DNA from: Bacteroidales bacterium
GTDB taxonomy: Bacteria; Bacteroidota; Bacteroidia; Bacteroidales; UBA10428
Assembly (NCBI GenBank): GCA_016934395.1
Contig: JAFGSZ010000020.1
Span: forward strand, 1 to 64,000
DNA: 64,000 bases
Direction of reading: 5' to 3'
Made by a program: the position numbers and the translations under genes. Below are positions 21,817 to 63,898 of the stretch, piece by piece. The notes under the pieces were generated by a model. The model was not told the DNA's origin and made no database searches. It saw only the letters and a program-made list of their open reading frames with translations. The first letter of the stretch is position 1. Each line of letters starts with the position of its first letter.

Positions 21817-23925
21817 ATGAGTAAAGATTTAATCTATACCAGGAATATTGGGATTATGGCCCATATAGATGCCGGTAAAACGACTACTACCGAGCGTATC
21901 CTGTTTTATTCCGGTATTACCCATCGAATGGGAGAGGTGCATGATGGTGCTGCAACAATGGACTGGATGGTTCAGGAGCAGGAAAGAGGGATAACAATTA
22001 CCTCAGCTGCCACAACGTGTTTTTGGGACTACAACAACAATAAATACAAAATCAATATTATCGACACTCCGGGTCACGTTGACTTTACTGTAGAGGTTGA
22101 AAGATCGTTACGAGTACTCGACGGAGCTGTTGCTGTTTTTTGTGCTGTGGGCGGTGTTGAACCCCAATCAGAAACCGTTTGGCGACAAGCAGATAAATAT
22201 AATGTTCCCCGTATGGCGTTTATTAATAAAATGGACCGCACCGGGGCCGATTTTTATGGAGTAGTTAATCAAATTAAGGAAAAACTCGGGGCAAATCCTG
22301 TTCCAATGCAAATCCCTATTGGTTCTGAAGATAATTTCAAAGGAATCATTGATCTTATTGAACGCAGGGCAATTCTGTGGAAAGAAGACGAAACCATGGG
22401 AACCAACTATGAATATTCCGATATTCCCGAAGAGCTTATTGAAGAAACTGAAGAATGGAGAGAAAAGCTTATTGAAGCAGTTTGCGAATCGGATGATGAT
22501 TTACTGGAACGTTTTTTTGAAAACAGGGAAGCAATTTCGGTTGAAGAATTTATGGAAGCAACCCGAAAAGCTGTTATCAACCGTACTATTGTACCCATAT
22601 TATGCGGTGCTGCATTTAAAAATAAAGGCATACAGCGTCTTCTTGATGCTATTTCCGCATTACTCCCAAGTCCTATAGATGTGGGTGCCGTGAATGGAAT
22701 CAACCCTAACAATGATGAAGAAATTACACGCGAACCCGATACTGAACAACCGTTGGCTGCACTGGCTTTTAAAATTGCAACCGATCCTTTTGTAGGCAGA
22801 CTGGTTTTCTTGCGTGTTTACTCCGGAGTTATTGAATCAGGGATGAATGTGTTCAATCCACGTACGGGGAAAAAAGAACGGATTACCCGTTTATACCAGA
22901 TGCATGCTAATAAACAAATTCCAAGGGAAAGAATTGAAGCCGGGGATATTTGTGCCGCAGTGGGATTAAAAAATCTGGTTACCGGAGATACTTTATGTGA
23001 TATTAAAAAGCCTATATATTTAGAATCAATGACATTCCCCGATCCTGTGATTGGAGTAGCCATTGAGCCTAAAACCCAGCAGGATATCGATAAATTGTCT
23101 ATTGCCCTCGGCAAATTAGCTGAAGAAGATCCTACATTCAGGGTGAAAACTGATGAAGATTCCGGTCAAACAATAATTAACGGAATGGGTGAACTCCACC
23201 TTGAAATATTAATAGACCGGTTAAAAAGAGAATTTAAGGTTGAATGTAATGTGGGTGCACCCCAGGTAGCTTACAAAGAAGCTATTGTTTCTACAGTGGC
23301 CCATCGCGAAATATTTAAAAAACAAACCGGCGGCCGCGGTAAATTTGCAGATATTCAGGTGGAATTGTCACCGGCAGATCCGGGAGAAAGCGGACTACAG
23401 TTTGTAGATGCTATTAAAGGCGGCAACATTCCAAAAGAATACATTCCATCTGTTGAAAAAGGATTTAAAGAAGCCATGCGAAATGGCGTACTGGCCGGAT
23501 TCCCTCTTGACAGCCTTAAAGTGGTGCTGAAAGACGGTTCATTCCACGCAGTGGATTCTGATGCCCTATCTTTTGAAATTGCTGCTAAACAGGCATTCAA
23601 ACATGGATTGGCTAAAGCAAAATCAGTATTGTTAGAACCCATTATGGCTGCCGAAGTGGTTACTCCCGAAGAATATATGGGTGATGTGATTGCCGATTTT
23701 AATAAAAGACGCGGACAGATTGAAGGTATGGAAAGCAAAGCCAATTCTAAGGTAATTAAAGCAAAAGTGCCTCTTGCAGAAAAATTCGGCTATGTTACCG
23801 TGCTTCGCACATTAACATCAGGGAGGGCAACATCTACTATGGAGTTTTCTCATTATGATGAAGTACCGGCTGAATTGGCAGGTAAAATAATAGATAAAAT
23901 AAAAGGAATTAAATCAACAGTATAA
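21817..23925 (+). CDS. fusA: Elongation factor G (canonical)
   Basis: The 702-residue GTPase drives translocation and, with RRF, ribosome recycling. All G motifs are intact: AHIDAGKT (residues 15-22), RGITI in switch I (57-61), DTPGH (83-87, catalytic His87) and NKMD (137-140). Domain IV tip [10 protein letters not shown] and GSFHAVDSD. The contrast with the divergent paralogue at 18331-20484, whose G3 His and G4 Lys are replaced, is clear. It is followed after 11 bp by rpsJ, so str and S10 operons are joined and tuf is not between them. Confidence 0.99.
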
Positions 23926-47243: not shown

Positions 47244-47924
47244 ATGAAAAGATTGTTTTTATTTATTTTCATTTTTGGTTCAGTCTCTACATACTTATTT
47301 GCTCAAAATGATTCGGCGAACCTCGTAAAATATACTCCTGATTTTAAATTTAACGAGGGGATTTTTGCCAGCTTTGCCCAGGTAAAAATAAACCAGCCTA
47401 TACCAAAATCGAGAATTTTGTCAGATCTGGATTTCTCCGATCAATATTTTTACGACCGGCTGCTTGAGGAAAAGAAAGTATATTATTTTGATAATATAGG
47501 CATAAAACATGAACTCCAGACTAAAAATATCTGGGGGTATTCCAGGAACGGATCTTTATATATTCATATCAATGATGATTTTTATAAAATTACTATAATC
47601 GGAAGCATTTGCCACTTTGTGGCCACTCAGACTACATATTCCAATAGTTATTCTGATCCGTATTATTACAATTATTACAATCCGTATCAATACAGGTATT
47701 ACCCGCGTACAAGTGAATCAACTGAGGTGAAGCAATATCTTTTTGATTTTAATACCGGTAAAGTATATGAATATACGGTGAGTGCATTGGAAATTTTATT
47801 AATGCAGGACCCGGAACTGTATGATGAATTTATGGCCTTGCGTAGTAAGAAGAAAAAACAATTAAAATTTTTGTACATAAGAAAATTTAATGAAAGAAAT
47901 TCATTGTATTTTCCTAAAAATTAA
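47244..47924 (+). CDS. Secreted protein of unknown function with Tyr-rich segment
   Basis: The 226-residue protein has a signal peptide (residues 1-20, ending YLFAQ). The body contains INQPIPKSRIL and SLYIHINDDFYKI. A low-complexity Tyr/Asn/Ser/Pro stretch (about 132-155; nt 47637-47710) has some ten tyrosines. I do not recognise the family. It lies 12 bp before another secreted protein gene, so the two are likely cotranscribed and may work together in the envelope. Confidence 0.75.
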   Translation: MKRLFLFIFIFGSVSTYLFAQNDSANLVKYTPDFKFNEGIFASFAQVKINQPIPKSRILSDLDFSDQYFYDRLLEEKKVYYFDNIGIKHELQTKNIWGYSRNGSLYIHINDDFYKITIIGSICHFVATQTTYSNSYSDPYYYNYYNPYQYRYYPRTSESTEVKQYLFDFNTGKVYEYTVSALEILLMQDPELYDEFMALRSKKKKQLKFLYIRKFNERNSLYFPKN

Positions 47925-47936
47925 AAAAGAAAGTCT

Positions 47937-48782
47937 ATGAGAAAATTATTTGTTTTGTTGACAGGATTGCTCCTTTGCGGAGCAGTGGCAGCACAGAGTT
48001 ATGTTCCTTCTAATGATGATATTAGCGCATTTTTTAATACAAAAACACTGGTAGTATTAGAAGATAATCCATTACTGGAATATAATATTGTGATAAAGGA
48101 AATTATGGAGCAGGAATGGAATATTACAGAGTATGAATTTATTTCGAAGAAAGAATTCGAGGAAAAAAGATTAGACCCGCAATACTCTTTTCTTTATAAC
48201 ACATTGGTAACTTTTGAAAATGATAAAACCGATGCGCGATACCGTTTTCTGCACTTATCTTTGGGGGGCGATTACTTCAGAATAAATCAGATGCCCGATA
48301 TTGCTTCTGTACCTTTATCGTATTTCAGTGTAGATGAGGATAATTATATTTATAAGCTGGGAATACTGGTACGTTTTATTCAAAACCATGCAAAACTTAT
48401 CAGGGAGCATCCTGAAATTGTTTCTGCCAATGTTTTTAAACACTATAACGATAATATAAAAGATATGCAGGGCAAGGTGCTTTATCTTCTGGAAGAAGAA
48501 CTTGCCAATGATGTAAATTCAGTACCCAGAATAAAAGATGTGTATCCTAACAAATTCAGGATTGTAACAAAAGAAGATATTGCACAGGCAATTAAGGAAC
48601 GGAATAATGATGTTGTGTTTTTACATAAAGTGGGGCCTGAGGGTACAAAAATTAATGCCAGGTGCTATAAGGTTATTATTGGAGCCGGTGACGCAAATTT
48701 TTATTATTTTGACTATCATAAAATAAATAGCAAGAATCCTGATGGATTCCTTAAACAGGATTTTAAAAAGCTTGTCAAATAA
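47937..48782 (+). CDS. Secreted protein of unknown function
   Basis: The 281-residue protein has a signal peptide (1-19, VAAQ). It has no membrane segment after that and no recognised motif; it is mixed alpha/beta in appearance, with LHLSLGGDYFRI and KVIIGAGDANFYYFDYHKI. The final residues FLKQDFKKLVK resemble those of several Bacteroidota proteins of unknown role. Probable operon with the preceding gene; followed by its own terminator. Confidence 0.75.
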   Translation: MRKLFVLLTGLLLCGAVAAQSYVPSNDDISAFFNTKTLVVLEDNPLLEYNIVIKEIMEQEWNITEYEFISKKEFEEKRLDPQYSFLYNTLVTFENDKTDARYRFLHLSLGGDYFRINQMPDIASVPLSYFSVDEDNYIYKLGILVRFIQNHAKLIREHPEIVSANVFKHYNDNIKDMQGKVLYLLEEELANDVNSVPRIKDVYPNKFRIVTKEDIAQAIKERNNDVVFLHKVGPEGTKINARCYKVIIGAGDANFYYFDYHKINSKNPDGFLKQDFKKLVK

Positions 48783-49717: not shown

Positions 49718-51688
49718 ATGGATCTGAGTATTGTAATAGTAAATTATAATGTAAAATATTTTCTGGAACAATGCCTGCATTCAGTATTTAATGCAATTAG
49801 CACACTAGAGGCTGAAGTTTTTGTTGTAGATAATAATTCGGTTGATGGTTCCTGTACCATGGTTTCAGAGAAGTTTCCCTTAGTAAAACTAATTTGTAAT
49901 TCGAAAAATTACGGTTTTGCAAAAGCCAATAACCAGGCAATAAAAAAAGCATCGGGGAAATATATTTTATTGCTGAATCCCGACACTGTGGTTGAAGAAA
50001 ACACATTTGTAAAATGTTTTCATTTTATGGAAAAACATTCGGAGGCCGGAAGTTTAGGAGTAAAATTAATAGACGGCAAAGGAAATTTCCTTCCTGAATC
50101 AAAACGCTCCCTGCCCACACCCGAAGTGGCCTTTTATAAAATTTTCGGCCTTGCTGCATTATTTCCCGGATCAAAAAAGTTTGGAAAATATCATTTGTCG
50201 TACCTCGATAGCCTTACACTTCATGAAGTTGAGGTGTTGCCCGGAGCATTTTTCTGGGTTAGAAAACAGGTATTGGATACCATCGGGTTGCTTGATGAAG
50301 ATTTTTTTATGTATGGCGAAGATATTGATTTGTCATATCGCATTCTTAAGGAAGGATACAAAAATTTTTATTTTCCTGAAACCACGATTATTCATTATAA
50401 GGGCGAGAGCACTAAAAAGGGTAGCGTGAACTATGTACTTGTGTTTTACAATGCCATGCGCATTTTTGCCCGCAAGCATTTTTCCAATAAAAATGCGCGT
50501 ATTTTTAACCTGTTGATCAATTTTGCTATTTTTTTCAGGGCCGGATTGTCCATTCTCAGAAGGGTAGCATTAAATATAATTACCCCGGTTCTGGACATGG
50601 GTTTAATGTATTCCGGATTTTATTTAATCGCCGTAGCCTGGGCCAGGTACAAATTTCATGACAGCAGTGCTTATCCAGAAGAATTCTTATATTTTGTGGT
50701 TCCGGCTTATATTTTACTCTGGATGGGGTCCATATTTTTTAACGGGGGCTACGATAGAAATTTGCGTACAATTAATCTGCTTAAAGGAATATTTTCAGGA
50801 GGATTGATTATCCTTCTTATTTATGCCCTGCTGCCGGAAACACTTCGCTATTCAAGGGCCATAATACTTATTGGAGCTTTTTGGGTAGGTTTCTCCACGC
50901 TGGGCGTCAGATACCTTTTAAGCAGGTTGAATCCGGGAAATTTTAGTATCAAAATAAAAAAAGTAAGAAAACGGATTGTTGTTATCGGGAAACTCACAGA
51001 AAGCAACAGAGTGATTTCCATCTTAAAAGAAACTCAGATTATCCCTGAAATAATCGGTATTGTTGATCCGGGAAAAGAAATGAAAAAATCAGATTATATA
51101 GGGCATATTTCACAAATAAATGATATTGTTAAAATAAACAAAGCTGAAGAACTGGTGTTTTGTGCAAAGGATATTTCATCGCAGCAAATAATTAAAACAA
51201 TGCTTGATTGCACAGGAACCGATCTCGAGTTTAAAATTGCTCCGCCTGAAAGTCTGTCTATTATTGGCAGCAATTCAATAGATACTGCAGGGGAACTGTA
51301 TACGGTTAATTTTAATTCAGTGGGAATTGCTATTAACCAACGTAAAAAACGAGTGCTGGATATAACACTGTCTATTTTGCTGTTGAGTATAAGTCCGGTT
51401 CTTATATTTTTTATACAACATCCCGGCAGGTTTTTTATTAACCTCCTAAAGGTGTTTCTTGGTATAAATTCCTGGGTAGGGTACCATAGAACTAATAATA
51501 CACCCGATGTTGACCTTCCTGAAATTAAAAAGGGAATTTTATCACCTTCAGATTCAGTGGATAAGTTTACGGATTCTGAGGAATTACAAATCCGGATGGA
51601 TCTGATTTATGCCAAAGATTACCGGATGATCAATGACATAAATATAATTTTAAAAGGATTTAAACATCTTGGAAGAAAAGTCTTATAA
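49718..51688 (+). CDS. Family 2 glycosyltransferase fused to a degenerate polyprenyl sugar-phosphate transferase
   Basis: The 656-residue protein has an N-terminal GT-A domain of the rhamnosyltransferase-like GT2 group (about 1-250): IVIVNYNVKYFLEQCL, LLNPDT and EDIDLSYRI. Four to five membrane helices follow (about 270-400), then a Rossmann-like CoA_binding_3 region (about 420-510). Residues 543-656 resemble a bacterial sugar transferase (PGT/WbaP): RVLDITLSILLLSISPVL anchor, LLKVFLG near the centre and DLIYAKDYRMINDINIIL at the end. The catalytic core of PGTs (KFRSM- and DELPQ-type motifs) is missing. The GT2 part probably adds sugar to a polyprenyl-linked acceptor; the rest may only position it at the membrane. 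Confidence 0.8.
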   Translation: MDLSIVIVNYNVKYFLEQCLHSVFNAISTLEAEVFVVDNNSVDGSCTMVSEKFPLVKLICNSKNYGFAKANNQAIKKASGKYILLLNPDTVVEENTFVKCFHFMEKHSEAGSLGVKLIDGKGNFLPESKRSLPTPEVAFYKIFGLAALFPGSKKFGKYHLSYLDSLTLHEVEVLPGAFFWVRKQVLDTIGLLDEDFFMYGEDIDLSYRILKEGYKNFYFPETTIIHYKGESTKKGSVNYVLVFYNAMRIFARKHFSNKNARIFNLLINFAIFFRAGLSILRRVALNIITPVLDMGLMYSGFYLIAVAWARYKFHDSSAYPEEFLYFVVPAYILLWMGSIFFNGGYDRNLRTINLLKGIFSGGLIILLIYALLPETLRYSRAIILIGAFWVGFSTLGVRYLLSRLNPGNFSIKIKKVRKRIVVIGKLTESNRVISILKETQIIPEIIGIVDPGKEMKKSDYIGHISQINDIVKINKAEELVFCAKDISSQQIIKTMLDCTGTDLEFKIAPPESLSIIGSNSIDTAGELYTVNFNSVGIAINQRKKRVLDITLSILLLSISPVLIFFIQHPGRFFINLLKVFLGINSWVGYHRTNNTPDVDLPEIKKGILSPSDSVDKFTDSEELQIRMDLIYAKDYRMINDINIILKGFKHLGRKVL

Positions 51689-51700
51689 TTTTTTGATAGT

Positions 51701-53011
51701 ATGGCGAATATTGAACTAATACTTCCTTCTATAGGTGAAGGTATTATCGAAGCTAAAATAACAAAATGGCTGATCTCTGAAGGGGATAAAATTGAAGAAG
51801 ATGAACCCCTGATAGAAATTGCCACAGACAAAGTTGACTCTGAAATTCCGGCTCCGGCAACCGGTAAGCTGGTAAAAATTATTTACAGGGAAGGAGAAAC
51901 ACCAAAAATAGGTGAAGTAATTGGTATTTTGCAAACTAATGGAGAAGATATTGAGAATCCTTCTATAAAAACCGGCAACACCGGAAAAATGGATAAATTA
52001 AAAACGGATAAAGAAAAAAGGCAATCTCCCAAGCCAGCTGTAGCAAAGGGTGAATTTGAGTTTACCAATGAAAATACCATTCAAAATAACATTTCCACAC
52101 TTATCAGGAACCTGGCAAAAACCCGTGGAATTACCTATGATGAGCTTAAACAAATTAAAGGATCCGGAAATGACGGGGATATTACAAAAGAAGATTTAAA
52201 TAATTATATCCTGGCCAACCGTCCTTTCAGGGTGGAACAACCCGCTTTAAAACCTGTGAGGCCGGCAGATCCGGAAGAGATGATTACACCCGGGATTCGT
52301 GAAGGTGAAGAACTTGTTGAAATGGACCGTATGCGGAAAATAATCTCACAGCATATGGTAGAATCCCTGAAAATTTCAGCTCATGTTACCTCATTTGTCG
52401 AGTTGGATGTTACCGGCATGGTCCAATGGCGAAATAAGGTGAAGAACCTGATATTGCAAAGGGAACAGGTAAAGCTTACATTTACTCCGATAATAGTAGA
52501 AGCTGTTGCCAAAGCGATCAGAGAATATCCCAATATAAACATTTCTGTAACCGGAGATAAAATAATAAAAAAGAATTATATAAATATCGGTGTAGCCACT
52601 GCTCTTGATAACGGGAATTTAATTGTACCTGTAATTAAATTTGCTGACAAGGAAAATTTATTGGGTCTTGCACATAAAATTCAGGATTTATCAACACGTG
52701 CAAGAAAAAATGAGTTAAAACCGGTTGAAATTACAGGAGGCACTTTTACGGTTACAAATATGGGACAGTTTAATAATGTAACCGGTACTCCGATTATTAA
52801 CCAGCCCGAGGTGGCTATACTGGCAATAGGTTCTATAAAACGTAAACCTGCGGTAGTTATTTCCGATGGAATAGAATCTATAGGAATCAGGGATATTCTG
52901 ATATTATCGTTAACGTATGATCACCGTGTGGTTGATGGAGCATTGGGAGGTTCATTTTTAAGCAGGGTAGGATATTATCTTGAAAATTTTGATATAAACA
53001 GGCCTGTATAA
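51701..53011 (+). CDS. Dihydrolipoamide acyltransferase (E2 of a 2-oxoacid dehydrogenase)
   Basis: The 436-residue protein has an N-terminal lipoyl domain with Lys44 in IATDKVDSEIP, a linker, a peripheral subunit-binding domain (about 135-170, IRNLAKTRGITYDELKQIKG) and the catalytic acyltransferase domain, ending with the active-site motif DHRVVDG (His408, Asp412). Substrate may be pyruvate, branched-chain 2-oxoacids or 2-oxoglutarate; sequence by eye favours pyruvate or branched-chain type. E1 and E3 genes are not adjacent in the window. Only 12 bp separate it from the glycosyltransferase gene, but a functional link is doubtful. Confidence 0.93.
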   Translation: MANIELILPSIGEGIIEAKITKWLISEGDKIEEDEPLIEIATDKVDSEIPAPATGKLVKIIYREGETPKIGEVIGILQTNGEDIENPSIKTGNTGKMDKLKTDKEKRQSPKPAVAKGEFEFTNENTIQNNISTLIRNLAKTRGITYDELKQIKGSGNDGDITKEDLNNYILANRPFRVEQPALKPVRPADPEEMITPGIREGEELVEMDRMRKIISQHMVESLKISAHVTSFVELDVTGMVQWRNKVKNLILQREQVKLTFTPIIVEAVAKAIREYPNINISVTGDKIIKKNYINIGVATALDNGNLIVPVIKFADKENLLGLAHKIQDLSTRARKNELKPVEITGGTFTVTNMGQFNNVTGTPIINQPEVAILAIGSIKRKPAVVISDGIESIGIRDILILSLTYDHRVVDGALGGSFLSRVGYYLENFDINRPV

Positions 53012-53185
53012 TATCAGGTGTATTTTTGTTTTCAGAGGATTTATTCTAGGGCTTATCTTTGTTTTTTCATAAATTGCAATGAATTGAAGGTTCAGAGTTA
53101 TAATGTTTTTATAAGTTTGTTAATTTCAGGTTTTTAAGTGTCTGCTATTTTTTTTTATCTTTACGAAAGACTAATTAAACGTATT

Positions 53186-56100
53186 ATGAAAGTGTTCCGG
53201 ATTTTGAATCGAAGTGCTTGTGTTTTAATTCTTTATTTTTTAAGCTTAGGTTCCATTTCGATATTCGCACAACTTAAACATGACTCGAAAAGCATGTTTC
53301 TCGATGCTGAATCCTATTTTCTTTTTGATGAATATAAAGATGCATTACCACTTTACCAGCGTTTATTATCAGAAGATCCAGATAATGCAAATCTGAATTA
53401 CAAAATCGGGGTTTGTTATTTAAACGATAAATATCAAAAAGAGAAATCCATTGCATATTTAAAAAAGGCTGTTGAGAATACCAGTAATAGTTACAGAATA
53501 AATTCTTTTAAAGAACGAAATGCCCCGCCCGAGGCATATTATTACCTCGGAAATGCTTACCGGGTGAACAACTTTCTTAATGATGCACTGGAAACATACC
53601 AGATATTTAAAGAAAGCGTAGATCCTGCAATATATGATCTAAACCTTGTAAATAAAGAAATTGAATCATGTAAGCGGGCTATAAAGATGGAACAAAATCC
53701 GGTATATTACGAGGCTGAAAATCTTCAGGAGCCTGTGAATAGCAGGTTTTCGGAATTAAATCCACTTATCTCGGGTGATGAAACAGCCCTGGTATATACT
53801 TCTGAATTACCTTTTTATACTGCCGTATTTTATTCAAAAAAACAAGCCGACGGTACCTGGGGTAATCCCATTAACCTTACCCCTTATTTTGGTGTGGATG
53901 GGAATACATATTCTACCGGTATTTCTTATAAAGGCGATGAAATTTATGTATATAGAAGTGATAATTTTGATGGAAATATTTATGTGAGTACACTAAATAA
54001 CGGTCAGTGGTCGGTTCTTGCCAAACTAAATGAAAACATTAACACAAAATTCTGGGAATCGCATGCAACAGTTTCAGCGGACGGCCTTACCTTATATTTT
54101 ACAAGCAACCGCACCGGGGGGTTCGGTGGCCTTGATATTTACAAATCTACACGTACAAAACGAGGCGCCTGGGGACCTGCGATAAATCTCGGACCGGTTA
54201 TAAACTCGCCATATAACGAAGAAACACCTTTTATTAGCGGTAATGGAAAACTATTATTTTTTAGTTCTTTTGGACATGATAATATTGGAGGATATGATAT
54301 CTACTATTCTGCTTTAAATCAAAATAACGAATGGTCTAAACCTAAAAATATAGGTTATCCGATTAATACCACCGATGATGATATGTTTTTTGTTCCGTAT
54401 GATAACGGGGCATTTGCGTATTACTCAATGTTTAATTCTGAAACTACCCTTGGCCTGAGTGACATTTACAAACTCCAGTTATTTTATGAACTGCATCCGC
54501 GGCAGTTTGTTATTAACGGCTCCGCGAAACCTAAAGGAACAAATACAATAAATTATAACAATCTTAAGGCCAAATTATTTAATAGCAAATCGCTTGAACT
54601 GGTGGATGAAAGTTCAATTAATCAAGACGGATCTTATCAGTTAAACGCTACAAATGGAGAGTATACTTTAGTGCTTAGCGGAGAGGAGATAAAAACCAGT
54701 GAGAAAGCCATTTCTCTTCCTATCAATAGTAAATCAACAAATATTAATATTGAACCAATGGCTCTTGAGGCCAGTATAACTGCCGAACCTCAGCCGGAAA
54801 TATTAAAACCCGGGCCGGTAGCCTACGTTCCTGTTCTGAAGGTGGATAAGGAGTACATTAAAGTTACTGATGATGAGGGAGTGCAGATTCGGTTAAATGT
54901 TGAAAAGGGATCAAAACTACTGGTTGAGGTTTATGCCGAAAACGAACAGTTAAGCTCGGAGCAGTTTGATATTAATCGCCGCCGTTTCAGTTACGGGTTT
55001 AAACCTGTGCCCGGAAAAAATGAAGTGCGGTTTCAAATTACTGATGCTAATGGCAATATAAATTCGAAAAATGTTGTGGTTGAATATACCCCGGCCGTAA
55101 CTGAGCAAACTCTCCCATTACCCCAAAAAACAGCCTTGCAAAAGTTAAATCCGGTATCGTCCCTGCTGCCATTTACATCGGGCAAAACCTATGACTATTT
55201 AGCTGAATTAAATAAGAAAGGCGGCATAAAAGATTTCAGTGAGTTATATGAGTTGCTGTCCCGCTTTGCTGAAGAAAATAATATAAGTCAGGATAGTATC
55301 AATTCGATTTTTGCTTCCATATTATCTCAAAAAAGCGCCCAACAGTTAAAAAATGAAATGTATGATATCTCCGGATCTGGTTTTCAGGAATCACTGAATA
55401 CTATTCAACCTGAAATTCTTAATAGTCTAACTTCCGAAACCCTTATAGCTTATTTACGAAACCATCCGGATAAGCTTTTTCCTGAAGAAGAGTTACAAAA
55501 CCTGTTATTAAGATTAACAGAAGATCCATCATCAGCAAAAACAGTGTTAAAACAATTAAAGAATTATGCCGGTCCCGAAACCCTGAATAAACTACAGAGT
55601 ATTAATCCTACCGGTATTGATAATCAGCAACTATTGGGTGAATTATCCAAACTCCTTTCAAAGGAAGAACTATGGAGATTATTAACTGATGCAGCCGCAA
55701 GCGAACCTTTAAGTCCGTTTTTCTTAAATCTGTTATTTGTTGCTGAAGGTGGAATAAAGGAAGCCCTTTCAGAAACTAGTTTTGAACAGCAGGGCATAAA
55801 AACATCCAGGGAATTAATTGATTATTTATTCAAAAGAGGTTCTGATTATGGATATACCGGAAGTGAATTAGTTGCTTTTATTGAAGAAGCACAAAATAAC
55901 CGAGAAGCTAACATCGAAAGATTTGTTGCGATACTTACCAATAAAGCTACCGGTACACTTAAGGATTACCTTACCGGATTTGATCCGAAAAAAGAAAAGG
56001 TTAAATCATTTTCCGGCTTACTCAATAAACTTGTTGATCAATCCCGCTATTCGAATTTTAGTATTGAACAGGTATATACGCTGCTGACCAGTCTGATCGA

Positions 56101-56482
56101 GATTAACAATATGGAGGATTTTATTAATAAAATGGCGGGTTATGCCTCCGGAGACCTGAAACTATTGCTTGAACGGGTTGATAAGTATAAATTTTCCACT
56201 CCTGTTGAACTTATTCAGTATTTATTAAGTCAGCGTGAAAATTATAATTATACTGAAAACGATATCAATGAATTACTGCTAAGGATGATCCTTGAAAAAG
56301 GAATAAAATATCTCGATACCGGAAAGGAATTAGTCATTCATTCACGATCGAAACAAGAACGAAACAGACTGATTGTTACCTTAGGGATTGCTAATGTGTT
56401 AATCTTATTTTTCCTTTTCTTTTTATTGTTCAAAAGAAGAAAATCAAAAAAAGATAAAAAACCTGATAATAAAACAGTTTAA
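53186..56482 (+). CDS. TPR-PD40 (PorE-like) protein with helical repeats and C-terminal membrane anchor
   Basis: The 1098-residue protein has a signal peptide (about 1-28, SIFAQ), TPRs (about 35-150), and a PD40 beta-propeller (about 170-425) with the signatures TLYFTSNRTGGFGG and GYPINTTDDDM. A CRD-like beta domain (about 440-525) and an Ig-like domain (about 550-635) follow. Residues about 660-1055 form at least four related helical units (for example SELYELLSRF, RELIDYLFKR, SGLLNKLVDQ, VELIQYLLSQ). A membrane helix (1062-1082) and basic tail KRRKSKKDKK should anchor it in the inner membrane. The start is ATG 53186: an upstream in-frame GTG (53138) adds 16 residues before a good signal peptide. 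First of five tandem paralogues; 11 bp before the next. Confidence 0.85.
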   Translation: MKVFRILNRSACVLILYFLSLGSISIFAQLKHDSKSMFLDAESYFLFDEYKDALPLYQRLLSEDPDNANLNYKIGVCYLNDKYQKEKSIAYLKKAVENTSNSYRINSFKERNAPPEAYYYLGNAYRVNNFLNDALETYQIFKESVDPAIYDLNLVNKEIESCKRAIKMEQNPVYYEAENLQEPVNSRFSELNPLISGDETALVYTSELPFYTAVFYSKKQADGTWGNPINLTPYFGVDGNTYSTGISYKGDEIYVYRSDNFDGNIYVSTLNNGQWSVLAKLNENINTKFWESHATVSADGLTLYFTSNRTGGFGGLDIYKSTRTKRGAWGPAINLGPVINSPYNEETPFISGNGKLLFFSSFGHDNIGGYDIYYSALNQNNEWSKPKNIGYPINTTDDDMFFVPYDNGAFAYYSMFNSETTLGLSDIYKLQLFYELHPRQFVINGSAKPKGTNTINYNNLKAKLFNSKSLELVDESSINQDGSYQLNATNGEYTLVLSGEEIKTSEKAISLPINSKSTNINIEPMALEASITAEPQPEILKPGPVAYVPVLKVDKEYIKVTDDEGVQIRLNVEKGSKLLVEVYAENEQLSSEQFDINRRRFSYGFKPVPGKNEVRFQITDANGNINSKNVVVEYTPAVTEQTLPLPQKTALQKLNPVSSLLPFTSGKTYDYLAELNKKGGIKDFSELYELLSRFAEENNISQDSINSIFASILSQKSAQQLKNEMYDISGSGFQESLNTIQPEILNSLTSETLIAYLRNHPDKLFPEEELQNLLLRLTEDPSSAKTVLKQLKNYAGPETLNKLQSINPTGIDNQQLLGELSKLLSKEELWRLLTDAAASEPLSPFFLNLLFVAEGGIKEALSETSFEQQGIKTSRELIDYLFKRGSDYGYTGSELVAFIEEAQNNREANIERFVAILTNKATGTLKDYLTGFDPKKEKVKSFSGLLNKLVDQSRYSNFSIEQVYTLLTSLIEINNMEDFINKMAGYASGDLKLLLERVDKYKFSTPVELIQYLLSQRENYNYTENDINELLLRMILEKGIKYLDTGKELVIHSRSKQERNRLIVTLGIANVLILFFLFFLLFKRRKSKKDKKPDNKTV

Positions 56483-56493
56483 ATTTTCCAATA

Positions 56494-58494
56494 ATGACCG
56501 GAAAAGCTTTAAAGCGAATTATTAGTTTCTTTGCAGCACTGTATTTTTTTTTCAATGTAACTGCACAGATATGGTCTTCAGACGAATATATTTATAACGA
56601 AGCCGAAGATTATATTATTTCAGAGGAATATACAGAAGCATTACCTCTTTTTCAGATGCTGGAAAAAAAGGGCTATAATAATGCAAATATTAAATATAAA
56701 ATTGGCGAATGTCTGATTAATATTCCCGGCCATAAATTGGAATCATTACCCTACCTGAAAGATGCATCAAACAAATGCTCTAAAACATACCAGGAAGGAT
56801 TACTAAACCAGTCCGTTGCCCCATTGAAGGCTTTGTTGTACCTGGGAGTAGCGTATCGTCTCGATAATAACTTTGACAAAGCGCTTGAGACATTTCAAAT
56901 CCTCAAAGATTCATTGGGTGAGGTAGCTGAATTCGAAACCATTGTTGATTTTCATATTAAAAGAATTGAGAATGCGAAAGAAATAGTAAAATCTCCCGTG
57001 GAATTTACGGAAAGCAGGCTCCCGGATTTTATTAATAACAAATTTTCAAATTTTAGTCCCCTGGTTAGCTCGGATTTATCACGGATTTTTTATATGACCC
57101 AATACCAGTTTTACGATGCCGTAATGGAAAGCTATAAAATAAATAATGAGTGGAATGAAACGATAAACCTTACACCTGAAATAAAATCTGATGGCGATTA
57201 TTATATTGTTGGTATTTCTAAGAACGGAGAAAAGATTCTTTTAAATTCATTTAACAGTTTTACCAGTGGCGATATTTATATTACCGAATTTATAGATAAT
57301 GTATGGACTAAATTGCACAAGTTAAATGATAATATAAATACCCGGTATAACGAAACCCATGCAAGCTTATCCCCAGATGGGAGAACCCTTTATTTTACCA
57401 GCAATCAGCCCGGAGGATTCGGCGGGCAAGACATTTATTCTTCGCAATTAGGCAAAGACGGGGAATGGCAACCTGCAAAAAATCTGGGCCCGGAAATTAA
57501 TACTGCATATAACGATATTGCACCTTTTGTAACTGATGATGGCAATTCACTCTTTTTCTGTTCCCAGGGACATTATAATATGGGAGGATACGATATTTTT
57601 CATTCCCGGACAGGGGAAAACGGCAACTGGCTTTATCCCTTAAATGTAGGGTATCCATTATCCACTACCGACGATGATATTTGGTATTTCCCGGTCGACA
57701 GCATTACGGGTTATTATTCCAGGTATTCTGATAAAGGGGAAACAGGAATGGATATCTATTCTGCAAGAATCATTGCTTTTTCCAATCCTGCAAGATTTTT
57801 AGTTAAAGGTGACCTTAAAACTGAGGATGAGGCCACGATATCAAATACCCGGTTAAATATTGTTGATGTTCTTAATAATAAGAAATTTGGGGAAATAGTG
57901 CCTGAAGATAATGGGACATTCAGTTATAAATTACCTTCAGGAAAATATCTGTTTCAGTTACAATCTGAAAATTTCGAACCATTTGAAAAAACGATCAATT
58001 TGCCAAAATACCTGCCCGAAGAGGAGATACTATTTACCGCACAGCTTAAAACCAAAATAATTGCAGAAAAAGATACTTTTTATATTGAAAATATACTTTT
58101 TGCCTTTGACAGTTATATAATTGACGGAGAAAGCAAAAGTTTTCTTGATAGTCTGATTATGTTGTTGAATCAATATCCTGAACTTACTATTGAAATTACC
58201 GGGCATACAGATGCTTTAGGTTCTGCAGCATACAACCAGATTCTTTCTTTACGCCGGGCCCGTGTAGTCAGCGACTATTTGGTTGATAATAAAATAGGCA
58301 ATGAACGGATTACTGTTAAAGGAATGGGAGAGTCGCAACCGGTAGCTGTAAATAAAAATTCTGATGGTACCGACAATCCTGTTGGCCGAAGATTCAACCG
58401 GCGTGCTGAAATTATTGTTAAAAACGAATATGATACCCTGATAATTCTCAAAAGCTTATTCATTCCTGACAGCCTCATTATTCCCCGTGATTAG
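56494..58494 (+). CDS. PorE-like protein: TPR, PD40 propeller, CRD, OmpA
   Basis: The 666-residue protein has a signal peptide (about 1-25, VTAQ), TPRs (30-150), a PD40 propeller (about 175-425: TLYFTSNQPGGFGGQDIY and VGYPLSTTDDD), a carboxypeptidase-regulatory-like domain (about 430-520) and an OmpA-family peptidoglycan-binding domain (about 535-650) with TGHTDALG and LSLRRARVV, including the Asp and Arg that bind diaminopimelate. This order is that of PorE of the Porphyromonas type IX secretion system, which links the T9SS to peptidoglycan. Cotranscribed with the preceding paralogue (11-bp gap). Which member, if any, is the true PorE orthologue cannot be decided by eye. Confidence 0.87.
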   Translation: MTGKALKRIISFFAALYFFFNVTAQIWSSDEYIYNEAEDYIISEEYTEALPLFQMLEKKGYNNANIKYKIGECLINIPGHKLESLPYLKDASNKCSKTYQEGLLNQSVAPLKALLYLGVAYRLDNNFDKALETFQILKDSLGEVAEFETIVDFHIKRIENAKEIVKSPVEFTESRLPDFINNKFSNFSPLVSSDLSRIFYMTQYQFYDAVMESYKINNEWNETINLTPEIKSDGDYYIVGISKNGEKILLNSFNSFTSGDIYITEFIDNVWTKLHKLNDNINTRYNETHASLSPDGRTLYFTSNQPGGFGGQDIYSSQLGKDGEWQPAKNLGPEINTAYNDIAPFVTDDGNSLFFCSQGHYNMGGYDIFHSRTGENGNWLYPLNVGYPLSTTDDDIWYFPVDSITGYYSRYSDKGETGMDIYSARIIAFSNPARFLVKGDLKTEDEATISNTRLNIVDVLNNKKFGEIVPEDNGTFSYKLPSGKYLFQLQSENFEPFEKTINLPKYLPEEEILFTAQLKTKIIAEKDTFYIENILFAFDSYIIDGESKSFLDSLIMLLNQYPELTIEITGHTDALGSAAYNQILSLRRARVVSDYLVDNKIGNERITVKGMGESQPVAVNKNSDGTDNPVGRRFNRRAEIIVKNEYDTLIILKSLFIPDSLIIPRD

Positions 58495-58710
58495 ATTAAA
58501 TTCATCCTTTTCGGCATGAATAATAATTTAAAATACCATTGTATTTTTCATGAAAAAAGTAACTATATTGTTAATTCTTAATAACTTTAAAATTATTTTA
58601 TATAAAAGGTATAGCTTATATAGATAGTTAGCTTGCTTACGTGGTTATAGATTAATGATTTAGCGATTTCTCGATTTAAATTGCTAATTTTGTTTTAAAA
58701 TTTTGATTTC

Positions 58711-60564
58711 ATGAAAAAATCTGTAATTATTTCATTTGTCTTATTGTTCTGTATTCTTGCAAGAGGTCAGAAAACTGAGGTTTCAACCAGAGATTATTTT
58801 GAAGATGCAGAATTTTTTCTTGAAAACGAGGAGTATGCCGATGCACTATATGATTATTTAGAGCTATACAACAGGGGTTATGAAAATAATAGTAATATTA
58901 ATTACAGAATAGGGTCATGTTATTTAAATATTAAAGGGCAAAAAGAAAAAGCTATACCCTATTTGCTTAAAGCCGTTGAGAATACTACAAAACGTTATCA
59001 GGAGAGTGTTTTGCGCGAAACCAGGGCACCCATAGATGCTTTTTTATACCTGGGTAATGCTTACCGTGTAACAGATCAGTTAGAAAAGGCCATCGCTACT
59101 TATAATCAATATATAAAATTAGCCGCAGATTTTGACGAGTCGGGTATTGAATACGCAAAACAACAAATCGAAGCATGTCTTATCGCTAAAGATTTTATGG
59201 AGACTCCTGTAGAATTTGAGAAAAGGAATTTAGGCCCCGAAATTAATACTTCTTCCTCAAATTATAAAGGGGTGATTTCAGGCGACGGAAATACCTTATT
59301 GTATATGATGGAATTACCTTTTTATCATGCCGTGTATTTTTCACAAAATGTAAATGGGGAATGGACAGCTCCTGTAAATATTACACCACAGATTCAATCG
59401 GATGGCGACCAGTTTGTAACCAGTGTTTCTTACGACGGGAAACAACTTTTTCTTACTAAGGAGGATAATTTTAATAGCGATATTTATATTAGTAATTACG
59501 AAAACGGATTATGGACCAAATCTGTTCCGTTGAGTAATAAAATAAATACAAAATTCTGGGAATCGCATGCCAGCATATCGGCTGATGGCAAGACCTTATA
59601 TTTTTCCAGCAACAGAAGGGGAGGCCTTGGTGAAATGGATATTTATAAATCTGAATTGAACGAATTTAACGATTGGAGCGCACCGGTAAACCTTGGAAAC
59701 AATATTAATACTGAATTAAATGAAGATACACCCTTTATCACAGAAGATGGCAAAACATTGTATTTCAGTTCACAGTCGCATAAATCAATGGGTGGTTACG
59801 ATATTTTTATATCGCATAAAGACGAACAGGGCAACTGGTCGGGACCGGAAAACCTGGGGTATCCGATAAATTCCACCGATGATGATTTATTCTTTTATCC
59901 CTGGAAAAATGGTAATGTAGGTTTGGTTTCAGTATTCTCCGATGATGGATTTGGAAAAGAAGACCTTTATGAATATTGGTTTGTGCCTTTCACGGCATTT
60001 GAAGAAGAGATAGCTTTAAAGGTTGGAGAAGACGTTGAAGAAGAAATGACTCAGCAGGAAATTGCAGATACTATACCTGCAGATATGGCCGAAGCAAAAA
60101 CTGAGGAACCGGTAGCAAAAGATACCATAAGCGAAATTGCTAAAATTGAATTTGATCTGGAACCTGTTTATTTTGGTTTTGACAGCTACCTTTTGAGAGA
60201 GGAAAATATAAGGATAATGGAAAAACTTATTGTTTTATTAAAAAACAATAAAGAATTTCAGGTAGTTATTACAGGTCATACCGATGCCCTTGGTGAAGCC
60301 GTATATAACTTAAGACTATCAGAACGTCGTGCCAAATCGGCATTGGATTATCTTGTAAAACATGGAATAAAAATAGAAAGGCTCACATCAAAAGGCATGG
60401 GCGAAAATCAGTTTGCAGCAATTAATGTAAATCCTGACGGCTCGGATAATCCTGAAGGCCGGAAGTTAAACCGAAGGGTTGAATTTGAACTTATAGGTGT
60501 GAATCAGGATAAAATTATCATAAAAATAAAACCAATTCCTGAAGAATTACGATATAAAGAGTAA
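58711..60564 (+). CDS. PorE-like protein: TPR, PD40 propeller, acidic linker, OmpA
   Basis: The 617-residue protein has a signal peptide (1-19, ARGQ), TPRs (25-150), a PD40 propeller (about 170-425: TLYFSSNRRGGLGEMDIY and LGYPINSTDDD), a Glu/Ala-rich linker (about 432-475) in place of the CRD of its neighbour, and an OmpA domain (about 478-600: TGHTDALGEAVYNLRLSERRA). It should be periplasmic and peptidoglycan-bound. It is 216 bp after the previous gene, and a TAATTTTG box (58685-58692) suggests its own promoter. Closely related to its neighbours in both TPR and propeller regions. Confidence 0.87.
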   Translation: MKKSVIISFVLLFCILARGQKTEVSTRDYFEDAEFFLENEEYADALYDYLELYNRGYENNSNINYRIGSCYLNIKGQKEKAIPYLLKAVENTTKRYQESVLRETRAPIDAFLYLGNAYRVTDQLEKAIATYNQYIKLAADFDESGIEYAKQQIEACLIAKDFMETPVEFEKRNLGPEINTSSSNYKGVISGDGNTLLYMMELPFYHAVYFSQNVNGEWTAPVNITPQIQSDGDQFVTSVSYDGKQLFLTKEDNFNSDIYISNYENGLWTKSVPLSNKINTKFWESHASISADGKTLYFSSNRRGGLGEMDIYKSELNEFNDWSAPVNLGNNINTELNEDTPFITEDGKTLYFSSQSHKSMGGYDIFISHKDEQGNWSGPENLGYPINSTDDDLFFYPWKNGNVGLVSVFSDDGFGKEDLYEYWFVPFTAFEEEIALKVGEDVEEEMTQQEIADTIPADMAEAKTEEPVAKDTISEIAKIEFDLEPVYFGFDSYLLREENIRIMEKLIVLLKNNKEFQVVITGHTDALGEAVYNLRLSERRAKSALDYLVKHGIKIERLTSKGMGENQFAAINVNPDGSDNPEGRKLNRRVEFELIGVNQDKIIIKIKPIPEELRYKE

Positions 60565-60652
60565 TGTTTTGTTGTTTCTTATTTCCATATCGTTTGGATA
60601 AACAATAAAACAAAATTTTTGTAACTAAATTTGAATATCAATTTTTTTCACC

Positions 60653-61972
60653 ATGAGGTATTCATTGCTGATATTCCTGCTGCTATTCCAGAGTTTACCT
60701 TATCTTACCGGTCAGGAAACCGGTACAATGGAAGAACAATTTGACGAAGGAGAATATTTTTATAAAAGAGGCGATTTTGATGAAGCCTTGTTTTACTATT
60801 TGAAATTAGTGGAAAATCAACCAGAAAATGCCCATTTTAATTTTAAAGCAGGCGAATGTTTTATGAATATCCCTGGAAAGGAAACAAAAGCTATTCCATA
60901 CTTTTTAGTTGCATCCCGAAATATTACCGATAAAAAATCCTACAGATCAAAATCTTTTAATGAAACACGTGCACCCTTGCATGTGTTGTTCTACCTGGGG
61001 AATGCCTATAGGATAAATAATGAACTGGACAAGGCCTTAGAGGTTTACGAAAAGTTTGTGAATTCACCGTATTACTGGGAAAATTATAATCTGGTGGTAG
61101 TGGAAAATGAAATAAAGTCAAGCGAACGGGCTAAAATTATTCAGGATAATCCGGTAAAATTTACTGAACATAAATTGGATACTTTAATTAACTCCGGATT
61201 TGCTGAACGCAATCCTGCAATATCAGGCAACGGAAATTCTATGGTATTCCTCCGGTCTCTGAAATTTTACAATGCTTTGTTTTATTCTGTAAAATCTGAT
61301 AATATTTGGTTGCCGCCGGTTAACATAAATCCACAGGTTGTTTCAGACGGGGAATATTCTCCGGTCTCACTTTCTTTTGATGGAAAAATATTGTTTCTGG
61401 TGAATAACGATGAAAATAACAAGGATATATTTATAAGTTATTTGCAGGATGGAATTTGGTCGAAATTAGAAAAACTGGATAAACCGGTGAATACTATTTT
61501 TAATGAAACACATGCCTGTCTGAATAAAGAAGGAAATATTCTTTATTTCACAAGTAACCGACCTCGCGGTGAAGGGGGTACAGATATCTATATGTGCAAA
61601 AAAAATAAAAACGGTGAGTGGGGCAAAGCAAAAAATCTGGGTAAGGAGATCAATACTGAATTTGATGAGGATACCCCGTTTATCACCAATGATAACAAAA
61701 CCTTGTTTTTTAGTTCAAAAGGACATTACAATATGGGAGGTTTTGATGTTTTTTATACCAATATGGGAGCAAAAAGCTGGGGACAGCCCATAAATCTGGG
61801 CTATCCGATAAACACTACCAGTGATGATCGTTTTATTGTTCCTGTTAATGCCGGTAAAATTGTGTATTTATCAAAAATTTCATCTGGCAATACCGGTGAT
61901 CCGGATATATTCGAACTTGATATACAATCCAACCTTTATCACCTCTATCAAGATTTTAACCGCAAGGAATAA
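60653..61972 (+). CDS. TPR-PD40 protein without anchoring domain (PorE-like paralogue)
   Basis: The 439-residue protein has a signal peptide (about 1-20, LTGQ), TPRs (about 25-145; LGNAYRINNELDKALEVYE) and a PD40 propeller (about 170-425; ILYFTSNRPRGEGGTDIY and LGYPINTTSDDRF). It ends 14 residues after the propeller, so it lacks the OmpA, SPOR or membrane segment of its paralogues and may be a soluble periplasmic subunit. The reading frame ends cleanly, and the following 120 bp do not encode an OmpA remnant, so it is not a simple truncation. A TAAATTTG box (60626-60633) lies 19 bases before the start. Confidence 0.85.
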   Translation: MRYSLLIFLLLFQSLPYLTGQETGTMEEQFDEGEYFYKRGDFDEALFYYLKLVENQPENAHFNFKAGECFMNIPGKETKAIPYFLVASRNITDKKSYRSKSFNETRAPLHVLFYLGNAYRINNELDKALEVYEKFVNSPYYWENYNLVVVENEIKSSERAKIIQDNPVKFTEHKLDTLINSGFAERNPAISGNGNSMVFLRSLKFYNALFYSVKSDNIWLPPVNINPQVVSDGEYSPVSLSFDGKILFLVNNDENNKDIFISYLQDGIWSKLEKLDKPVNTIFNETHACLNKEGNILYFTSNRPRGEGGTDIYMCKKNKNGEWGKAKNLGKEINTEFDEDTPFITNDNKTLFFSSKGHYNMGGFDVFYTNMGAKSWGQPINLGYPINTTSDDRFIVPVNAGKIVYLSKISSGNTGDPDIFELDIQSNLYHLYQDFNRKE

Positions 61973-62092
61973 TTTTCGTATAGTATTAAGCTAAAAGATT
62001 AGTAATAAGTTAAAATATACAGTTATTGCTACTAAAATTTATTATAAATTTAATGAATTGCAAAATTATCAAGGTTTAATATAAGGAATTGA

Positions 62093-63898
62093 ATGAATTG
62101 GCAATTCATTAAATATCAACTAAAGGCAGGATTAATTTGTATTCTGATTTGTTTTTCTTTTAAAGGATTTTCACAAACCGAAAAAGAAAACAAACAGAAT
62201 TTTTTATATGGCGAATATTATTTTAAAAAAGGATATTTACCAGCTGCACTCGATTTTTATCTTTTTGTCAATAAATCAAATCCTGAAAATGCCAATGTAA
62301 ACTATCGTATTGGTGAGTGTTATTTTGGTTTAAAAGGTAAAGAGAAATTGGCAATACCTTATTTTGAAGCCGCAGTAAAAAATATAAATCCTAAATATGT
62401 AGAAGGCAAGTATAAAAAAACCGAAGCTCCGCCTGAAGCCTGGCTGGAACTTGCTAATGCATATCATTGGGACCAGCAGCTCGAAAAAGCATTAATGGCC
62501 TATAACGAATATAAAAATTGGATAAAGAGGGATAAAAAGAAACTGGAAGAAACCGATCGCAAAATTCAGCAATTGGAGACTGCACGCAAATACATTATTA
62601 ATCCATTAAATATTCGAAAAGTAAACCTGGGGGAAAAAATAAATACCCGTTTTACAGATTATAACCCGGTTATTTCGGGCGATAAATCAACTATGGTTTA
62701 TACGTCATTTTGGGAATCGGTTGACCGGATTTTTATGTCAAAAAGAATTGATGGGGAATGGTCGGCATGGGTTGATATTAGTAAAGAAATAGGATCGGAA
62801 GGCGATTGCTATTCAGCCGCTTTATCCTATGATGGTAAAGAATTGTATATAATACAGCTTGGGATATTCGATGGTGATATTTTTGTAAGCAAAAGTAGTA
62901 AACGGGGTAAATGGTCGCGCATGGAACTGTTGGAAGGTAAGGTGAATTCTGATAAACAGGAAACCGGGGTAAGTATTTCACCTGACGGAAAGGTGCTTTA
63001 TTTTTGCAGTAACCGAAACGGAGGCGAAGGAGAATTTGACATATACCGGGCCACTCGCAAAAATGGAATATGGGACGATGTTGAAAATTTGGGCCCTGTT
63101 ATCAATACACCGTACAACGAAAAATCACCTTTTATAATGGACGATGGCAAAACCTTATATTTTTCTTCAGAAGGATTTGAAAATATGGGTGGATCTGATG
63201 TATTTTTTTCTGTACTTAATGAAAATAATAGATGGTCTGCTCCGCAAAATGTTGGATATCCTGTTAGTACCACCAGGGATGATGATTTTATCCTGGCTTT
63301 CGACGAGGGTAAAACGTTATATTTTTCAAGGGACTTTGATGATGGATTTGGAAGAAATGATATTTACAGTGTTCAAATATTACCTCCTGAAGAAAAAACC
63401 GCAGAACTGTCAGTTCAGCCCATAAACGAGATTATGGAAGACAATTATCAAACAAATACAGCCATAACTGCAACCGAAGATATTGATTTACAAATTCCCA
63501 TTCAGGAAAATGTTCCTGAAAAAGTGGAAGAAACCGATTTTAGTGAAAATTTAGCATCAAATGAATTTGAAAATGAACAGGCAGCTATTTCGCAAAATGA
63601 ACAATCAGATATTATAAAAGATGAACAACCTGCAATAACACAAAATAAAATTCTACAAGATAATAAAGGAGTTCCATTATATACCATTCAAATTATAGCT
63701 TTAAAAAATCCAGTAAATACAAGTTATTTCAGAAATTTAAAGAATGTAAAAATTTCGAGAGGGGATGATGGATTTCACCGCTATACATATGGCGAATACC
63801 CGGGTTACTCAATTGCCGAAACGGAGTTGCTGAAGGTTAGAAAACTGGGATATCCCAATGCTTTTATACGAAAAGTGGAATCGGTGCAGAACTATTAA
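62093..63898 (+). CDS. TPR-PD40 protein with C-terminal SPOR-like domain (PorE-like paralogue)
   Basis: The 601-residue protein has a signal peptide (about 1-27, KGFSQ), TPRs (about 30-150), a PD40 propeller (about 175-430; VLYFCSNRNGGEGEFDIY and VGYPVSTTRDDDF), and a Glu/Gln/Asn-rich linker (about 440-522). The C-terminal domain (526-601) resembles SPOR: YTIQIIALKNPV, then DDGFHRYTYGEY and a helix ending LGYPNAFIRKV. SPOR domains bind denuded peptidoglycan glycans, so this paralogue would reach the cell wall by another route than the OmpA-bearing ones. Last of the five tandem copies in the window. Confidence 0.85.
   Translation: MNWQFIKYQLKAGLICILICFSFKGFSQTEKENKQNFLYGEYYFKKGYLPAALDFYLFVNKSNPENANVNYRIGECYFGLKGKEKLAIPYFEAAVKNINPKYVEGKYKKTEAPPEAWLELANAYHWDQQLEKALMAYNEYKNWIKRDKKKLEETDRKIQQLETARKYIINPLNIRKVNLGEKINTRFTDYNPVISGDKSTMVYTSFWESVDRIFMSKRIDGEWSAWVDISKEIGSEGDCYSAALSYDGKELYIIQLGIFDGDIFVSKSSKRGKWSRMELLEGKVNSDKQETGVSISPDGKVLYFCSNRNGGEGEFDIYRATRKNGIWDDVENLGPVINTPYNEKSPFIMDDGKTLYFSSEGFENMGGSDVFFSVLNENNRWSAPQNVGYPVSTTRDDDFILAFDEGKTLYFSRDFDDGFGRNDIYSVQILPPEEKTAELSVQPINEIMEDNYQTNTAITATEDIDLQIPIQENVPEKVEETDFSENLASNEFENEQAAISQNEQSDIIKDEQPAITQNKILQDNKGVPLYTIQIIALKNPVNTSYFRNLKNVKISRGDDGFHRYTYGEYPGYSIAETELLKVRKLGYPNAFIRKVESVQNY

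Follow-up and report, generated by a model that had tools for sequence, protein, structure and literature searches.

In the Tol-Pal system, the components are a TolB propeller, the OmpA domain of Pal, the TPR of CpoB/YbgF, and an inner-membrane part. Two further described systems are close to the genes treated here. PorE (PG1058), of the type IX secretion system (T9SS), carries TPR, a propeller, a CRD-like domain, and an OmpA domain of the peptidoglycan-binding type, in that order (PMC5053529, PMC7192894); its C-terminal domain binds a peptidoglycan fragment (PMC7192894), and the P. gingivalis protein is an outer-membrane lipoprotein. PorE homologues number 2 to 13 per species in some cases (PMC5053529), 14 in Tannerella forsythia, and more than 20 in Flavobacterium johnsoniae (PMC7192894). 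CHU_0125 of Cytophaga hutchinsonii has a Pal-like OmpA tail, and its deletion harms outer-membrane integrity (PMC5891637). Here we analyzed a window of 64,000 nucleotides (positions 1-64,000, forward strand, of contig JAFGSZ010000020.1, assembly GCA_016934395.1, Bacteroidales bacterium, UBA10428) that contains five neighboring genes with related TPR-propeller heads and different C-terminal anchors. Whereas CHU_0125 is described as a single gene, the present genes form a set, and a multi-anchor set of this sort was not found described in the literature searched, as far as its text was available; the preliminary description of the window likewise knew of none. The genes and their recognizable tail domains are as follows.

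53186..56482, + strand: gene 1, 1098 amino acids; signal peptide, TPR, PD40 propeller, CRD-like and Ig-like domains, helical region, C-terminal transmembrane (TM) helix and basic tail
56494..58494, + strand: gene 2, 666 amino acids; TPR-PD40 head, weak CRD-like domain, OmpA domain; own clade
58096..58368, + strand: OmpA domain of gene 2 (PF00691, E 1.5e-21; D/R pair 15 apart)
58711..60564, + strand: gene 3, 617 amino acids; TPR-PD40 head, acidic linker, OmpA domain; own clade
60169..60441, + strand: OmpA domain of gene 3 (PF00691, E 4e-18)
60653..61972, + strand: gene 4, 439 amino acids; TPR-PD40 head only, without a tail
62093..63898, + strand: gene 5, 601 amino acids; TPR-PD40 head, linker, SPOR-like domain
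63626..63895, + strand: SPOR-like domain of gene 5 (own PF05036 match below the cut-off; homologous tails match)

In general, Pfam and the sequences agree on the common signal peptide, TPR block, and PD40 propeller that had been proposed for all five products. PD40 was matched in 5/5 proteins (E 7e-14 to 9e-23), as were TPR models, the matches of genes 1, 2, and 5 each lying under the curated cut-off. Within its own genome, gene 3 matched the other four heads at 37 to 41% identity (E 2e-94 to 4e-108). After these came the paralogues C143 and C78, 33 to 35% identical (E 2e-46 and 2e-45), and shorter pieces reached 43% identity at E 1e-21 or weaker. The propeller of gene 1 drew TolB as its leading Foldseek matches, an archaeal propeller coming third, and TolB headed its fold matches in the PDB. 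For the gene 5 head, VIA returned arabinosidase-type (glycosidase) and TolB propellers alike at Z 16 to 18; thus, the fold by itself does not point to TolB specifically.

For phylogeny and gene order, we compared 98 stretches of DNA, some sharing a genome, of which 97 contained head genes. Most were found through gene 1 queries, some of them at full length or with the TM-bearing tail. Tails were classed by set thresholds: TM calls were based solely on hydropathy within the C-terminal 90 residues, and the head-only class (sol) also takes in unrecognized tails of 70 to 131 residues. Tree rows were subsets of 96 and 69 drawn from 225 (222 heads plus, as an outgroup, three of the additional PD40 genes in the window's genome), and short, cut, or weak heads were excluded beforehand. 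The 96-row tree contained an 88-row group (99% support) that holds every head from TM-bearing loci in the tree; the deep order between clades has little resolution, some branches were flagged as long, and no branch sets the three outgroup rows apart from the rest. Outside this group were three paralogues (C143, C78, and C102) along with five heads from the loci L108, L111, and L112, which have no TM gene. The propeller-only tree was concordant. The five propellers thus did not turn out to branch apart among distant families, and the earlier proposal that the set arose by duplication and carries differing anchors is supported.

Anchor types follow head clades. Gene 1 fell in a 17-row set in which all members carry TM (98%), gene 3 among 13 OmpA rows and 1 head-only row (99%), gene 4 among 15 head-only rows (99%), and gene 5 among 6 SPOR rows (99%), each set reaching other families, and gene 2 fell among 6 OmpA rows (98%) of its own family only. 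Anchor labels required 15 changes on the 96-row tree, compared with a mean of 55.6 after shuffling, and a value as low was obtained in 0/200 shuffles. TPR-only and propeller-only trees (69 rows each) required 11 changes each, compared with about 39 after shuffling; swapping of TPR and propeller domains was considered and not seen, as these two trees agree. The main anchor classes are thus older than the families. Tails have nonetheless been lost or swapped within clades: L098 has a head-only gene among the relatives of gene 3, and an OmpA+SPOR gene of L066 is placed next to head-only genes from L020 and L094.

Among the matches listed, the gene 1 head was found in 23/23 genomes of the window's family. 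The order TM>OmpA>OmpA>sol occurred on one contig in 17/23, followed by a SPOR gene in 6 of these 17 (two SPOR genes in one of them); the fifth gene is the variable member within the family. Among the remaining genomes, G161 has TM>OmpA>sol, G149 has a gene 1 relative that lies apart from the other three members and reads without TM, and G152, G158, G166, and G167 have the cassette cut by contig ends. At E 1e-88 or better, the gene 1 head was present in at least 77/393 genomes of the order, a lower bound since diverged head genes occur in genomes lacking such a match. At 1e-85, one genome out of 296 sampled from the phylum carried it, namely that of the window.

The genes also keep to one chromosomal site, whose upstream side in the window is the following feature.

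49718..53011, + strand: conserved upstream flank, with a GT2-type gene (49718-51688) and a lipoyl E2 acyltransferase gene (51701-53011)

A GT2-type or E2 gene lay upstream in 68/97 loci, and a GNAT gene lay downstream in 60/97. From genomes without a match at 1e-88, we further examined 20 stretches that adjoin this GT2 gene, and 18/20 were free of head genes, although two of the 18 (L140 and L150) are each shorter than 5 kb. At L141, L151, and L152, GT2 adjoins GNAT with no head gene between, while the other 2/20 contained diverged head genes, one at L142 and three at L153. The set behaves like a cassette gained or lost at one fixed site in part of the Bacteroidales.

Neighboring head genes were co-directional in 167/167 pairs, with a median gap of 79 bases across the 97 loci. 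One TM member was called in 61 loci and two were called in none, a TM fraction that leans upward since the stretches were found mainly with gene 1 queries. Conserved neighbors on both sides were present in 45/97 loci; exactly one TM member was found in 41 of these 45 and two in none, and 35/45 combine TM with one or more OmpA or SPOR members. The compositions of these flanked loci include TM>OmpA>OmpA>sol (n = 11), TM>OmpA>sol (n = 9), sol>TM>OmpA+SPOR (n = 6), TM>OmpA>OmpA>sol>SPOR (n = 5), and sol>TM>sol (n = 3). The preliminary description had expected a gene set kept together across relatives: co-directional, neighboring genes were indeed the rule, while the number and kinds of anchors vary, and five is the local state of the set. 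As an evolutionary unit, the set is well supported.

The preliminary description had listed the C-termini as membrane helix, CRD-OmpA, linker-OmpA, none, and SPOR-like; these assignments held apart from the CRD of gene 2, which is weak (E 0.28). The OmpA domains of genes 2 and 3 scored 77.0 and 66.0 bits against PF00691, over the cut-off of 27.2. A D/R pair in OmpA domains serves peptidoglycan binding. The strict [TS]D-x14-R pattern was present in 69/87 OmpA-bearing proteins, and visual inspection showed that in 15 of the remaining 18 the D and R are kept while the residue preceding the D differs. SPOR domains bind denuded septal glycan. The gene 5 tail matched PF05036 at E 0.031 and 15 bits, under the cut-off of 21 bits. 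Homologous tails matched at E 0.1 or better in 21/24 cases (best, 7e-11), the 24 being those scanned of 37 labeled tails, with several weak ones among the 13 dropped. Within the gene 5 clade (n = 8), four tails were over the cut-off (22.8, 42.7, 23.5, and 24.6 bits), three were under it, and one (L041) had no match. The structure model of gene 5 is confident for the head alone, and the tail has a predicted local distance difference test (pLDDT) score below 50; thus, the SPOR call rests on profile matches and not on predicted structure. About 0.8 kb beyond the window's end, the same contig encodes a 642-amino-acid protein in which three SPOR-like repeats can be made out by eye (L009:2812-4740; Pfam SPOR, 24.8 bits); in 13 loci, its relatives follow directly after the cassette. 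We considered this protein as kin of the gene 5 tail and set the idea aside, its match to the gene 5 tail model being weak.

Gene 1 is the longest member and has the following parts.

53273..53695, + strand: TPR block (residues ~30-170; Pfam TPR below the cut-off, helices with high pLDDT)
53705..54490, + strand: PD40 propeller (residues ~174-435; PD40 E 6e-18; Foldseek top match TolB, E 4e-9)
54503..55087, + strand: CRD-like (440-511) and Ig-like (555-634) sandwiches (predicted strands; CarbopepD_reg_2 E 8e-4, below the cut-off)
55181..56245, + strand: helical region (residues ~666-1020, ~350 residues, mostly helical; low to middling pLDDT)
56369..56431, + strand: transmembrane helix, then basic tail (from the sequence; K/R-rich ends in relatives)

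An upstream GTG at 53138 would give an alternative start and a protein of 1114 amino acids. The model of gene 1 (mean pLDDT, 74.8) is mostly confident up to residue 634, except for residues 532 to 548 between the two sandwiches, and poor in the helical part. Self-BLAST found no repeats in the helical region, and among the tails scanned, from 23 of the 61 TM proteins, CRD-like was the sole Pfam family to match more than one. The protein ends in a hydrophobic stretch followed by KRRKSKKDKK. The hydrophobic end fits the inner-membrane helix proposed earlier, a picture that had omitted the CRD-like, Ig-like, and long helical parts. At least four K/R were counted in the last 25 residues of 56/61 TM proteins and two to three in the other five. 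From head to C terminus, 60 proteins span 133 to 1054 residues. The relatives in L065, L076, and L078 are giants of 1489 to 1494 amino acids (about 1050 residues past the head), whereas those in L082, L092, and L098 extend only 133 to 163 residues past it, so that the tether varies about eightfold. At L021:10780-13734, an in-frame stop splits a TM-type gene into open reading frames of 562 and 421 codons, which reflects either an assembly error or a broken gene.

Gene 2 comes nearest to PorE and fits its domain order apart from the weak CRD; genes 1, 4, and 5 depart from it in having no OmpA match, and gene 3 in having a linker before the OmpA domain. All five heads matched the NCBIfam PorE model (E 6e-36 to 6e-68), at 124 to 229.7 bits compared with a curated cut-off of 600 bits (NF052230), which none reached; in this respect, the earlier PorE-like description is modified. 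The C78 gene is closer to PorE at 330 bits, also below 600. Within NCBIfam, the CHU_0125 model (NF053607) ranked first or second for each of the five proteins, at 144 to 235.7 bits against an unreached cut-off of 620. In contrast to the lipoprotein PorE of P. gingivalis, the five lack a loose lipobox, which a pattern search alone located in 5/226 open reading frames; the F. johnsoniae homologues have no predicted lipoprotein signal either (PMC7192894). The available portions of the PorE accounts mention no TM- or SPOR-tailed sister (PMC5053529, PMC7192894). The likeness to Tol-Pal extends to the TolB-type propeller, the Pal-type OmpA domain, the TPR, and an inner-membrane part (roles partly from the available text of PMC5891637), with the difference that in the cassette the parts are fused into one chain. 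Against TolB itself (TIGR02800, cut-off 343 bits), genes 1 and 4 scored 12.6 and 15.4 bits, and genes 2, 3, and 5 were not among the matches listed. A TolB match over the cut-off was found in 0/23 family genomes and weaker ones in 22, TolQRA not being searched for. The tolA and tolB genes are named in C. hutchinsonii (PMC5891637, as far as available), so the phylum is not devoid of them.

The best reading of the set, to which we give about an even chance, is a multi-anchor periplasmic scaffold linking the inner membrane and peptidoglycan. Judged from their sequences, the five products would be secreted, periplasmic proteins with one TolB-like propeller and TPR head, fastened at differing places in the envelope. 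Gene 1 would be held in the inner membrane via its C-terminal helix, genes 2 and 3 would grip peptidoglycan via their OmpA domains, gene 5 would grip glycan strands via its SPOR-like domain, and gene 4 would be an untethered head. Most likely, the heads bind one another or a single common partner. Were this so, the products may form one complex and serve as one system, a tether for something fixed at the wall and connected to the inner membrane. In its favor are the recognized domains, the gene order conserved in the family, the closely spaced, co-directional genes, the single TM member per locus and its pairing with OmpA or SPOR members, the trees, the cassette-free sites, the [TS]D-x14-R pattern, and the TolB fold matches. 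Several observations weigh against the scaffold. No TM member was called in 36/97 loci, many of which carry OmpA and OmpA+SPOR genes; 17 of the 36 lie within 1.5 kb of the end of the stretch, and 19 do not. Among the 45 flanked loci, two have TM alone, four have TM plus heads without a tail of the wall-binding type, and four have no TM call (L021, with the split TM gene, L111, L120, and L130). The gene 1-derived queries also favor TM members, which were themselves called by hydropathy. In the heads, 58/61 conserved positions are common to at least one of three other PorE-like paralogues, so no set-specific interface is visible; set-specific motifs, represented by the 3/61 positions absent from all three outgroup paralogues, were therefore not retained as a candidate. 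Finally, the available text reports no division or spreading defect on deletion of CHU_0125 (PMC5891637).

Other readings differ in what the anchors would be for. Tentatively, and with clearly less confidence than in the scaffold, we suggest a Tol-Pal-like trans-envelope coupling machine of the Bacteroidales, made from a single head by duplication. Related TolB-like heads would bridge an inner-membrane copy and copies bound at the wall or septum, and the one locus would exchange its anchors like modules, gaining them, losing them, or fusing them (OmpA+SPOR). Equally tentative is a role as a T9SS accessory, which the PorE-like heads and the binding of a peptidoglycan fragment by PorE (PMC7192894) would suit. 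SprA was found in 21/23 family genomes and, among the matches listed, in 76/77 cassette carriers of the order, co-occurrence with T9SS being a check that the preliminary description had proposed. It was also found in at least 371/393 genomes of the order, and this near universality leaves the overlap with little information. Moreover, no T9SS-like gene was recognized by eye among 23 neighbor families, with Pfam covering 8 neighbors on the window's own contig, and the five heads fall short of the PorE cut-off and score below the C78 gene.

Somewhat less probable still are independent duplicates, each protein with a separate partner and the tandem order a trace of origin only. Old anchor classes and differing divergence rates would agree with this, as would the separated gene 1 relative of G149 and the solitary TM genes of some flanked loci; the retention of order and composition across several families, and the short gaps between uniformly co-directional neighbors, speak for a set instead. 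We consider it very improbable that the TM and basic tail of gene 1 are a cleavable C-terminal sorting signal and no lasting inner-membrane anchor. Basic residues do follow the helix, in the numbers given above, and a rhomboid gene is close by in 23 loci; that gene is, however, also kept at the cassette-free site L141, and no common motif before the helix was noticed by eye among the TM tails inspected.

The surroundings of the cassette offered further observations. The product of 49718-51688 has a GT2 N terminus followed by membrane segments, with Pfam covering the N-terminal part only; related genes precede the cassette in 58 loci, and 114/149 genomes of the order gave a match at 1e-80, some to the GT2 part only. 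Capsule-export genes were considered as a functional clue and dropped: Wza-like and Wzc-like genes occur in 9 and 11 compared loci, respectively, all of the window's family, and so are no property of the cassette. The window's own Wza-like and Wzc-like copies are on L009 past the window end, after the triple-SPOR protein. At 47244-48782, two adjacent signal-peptide-like proteins have no Pfam match, and genes related to the second precede the cassette in L053, L057, and L061. Farther away, two EF-G-like genes (18331-20484, - strand, 717 amino acids; 21817-23925, + strand, 702 amino acids) lie a short distance apart beside ribosomal protein genes, all named by eye.

The recurring locus pairs one head with several envelope anchors, the predicted inner-membrane anchor included. 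Through it, the role of PorE-like paralogues, which are numerous in the Bacteroidota, becomes testable, and the cassette is a candidate for a link of the inner membrane to the wall in these bacteria.

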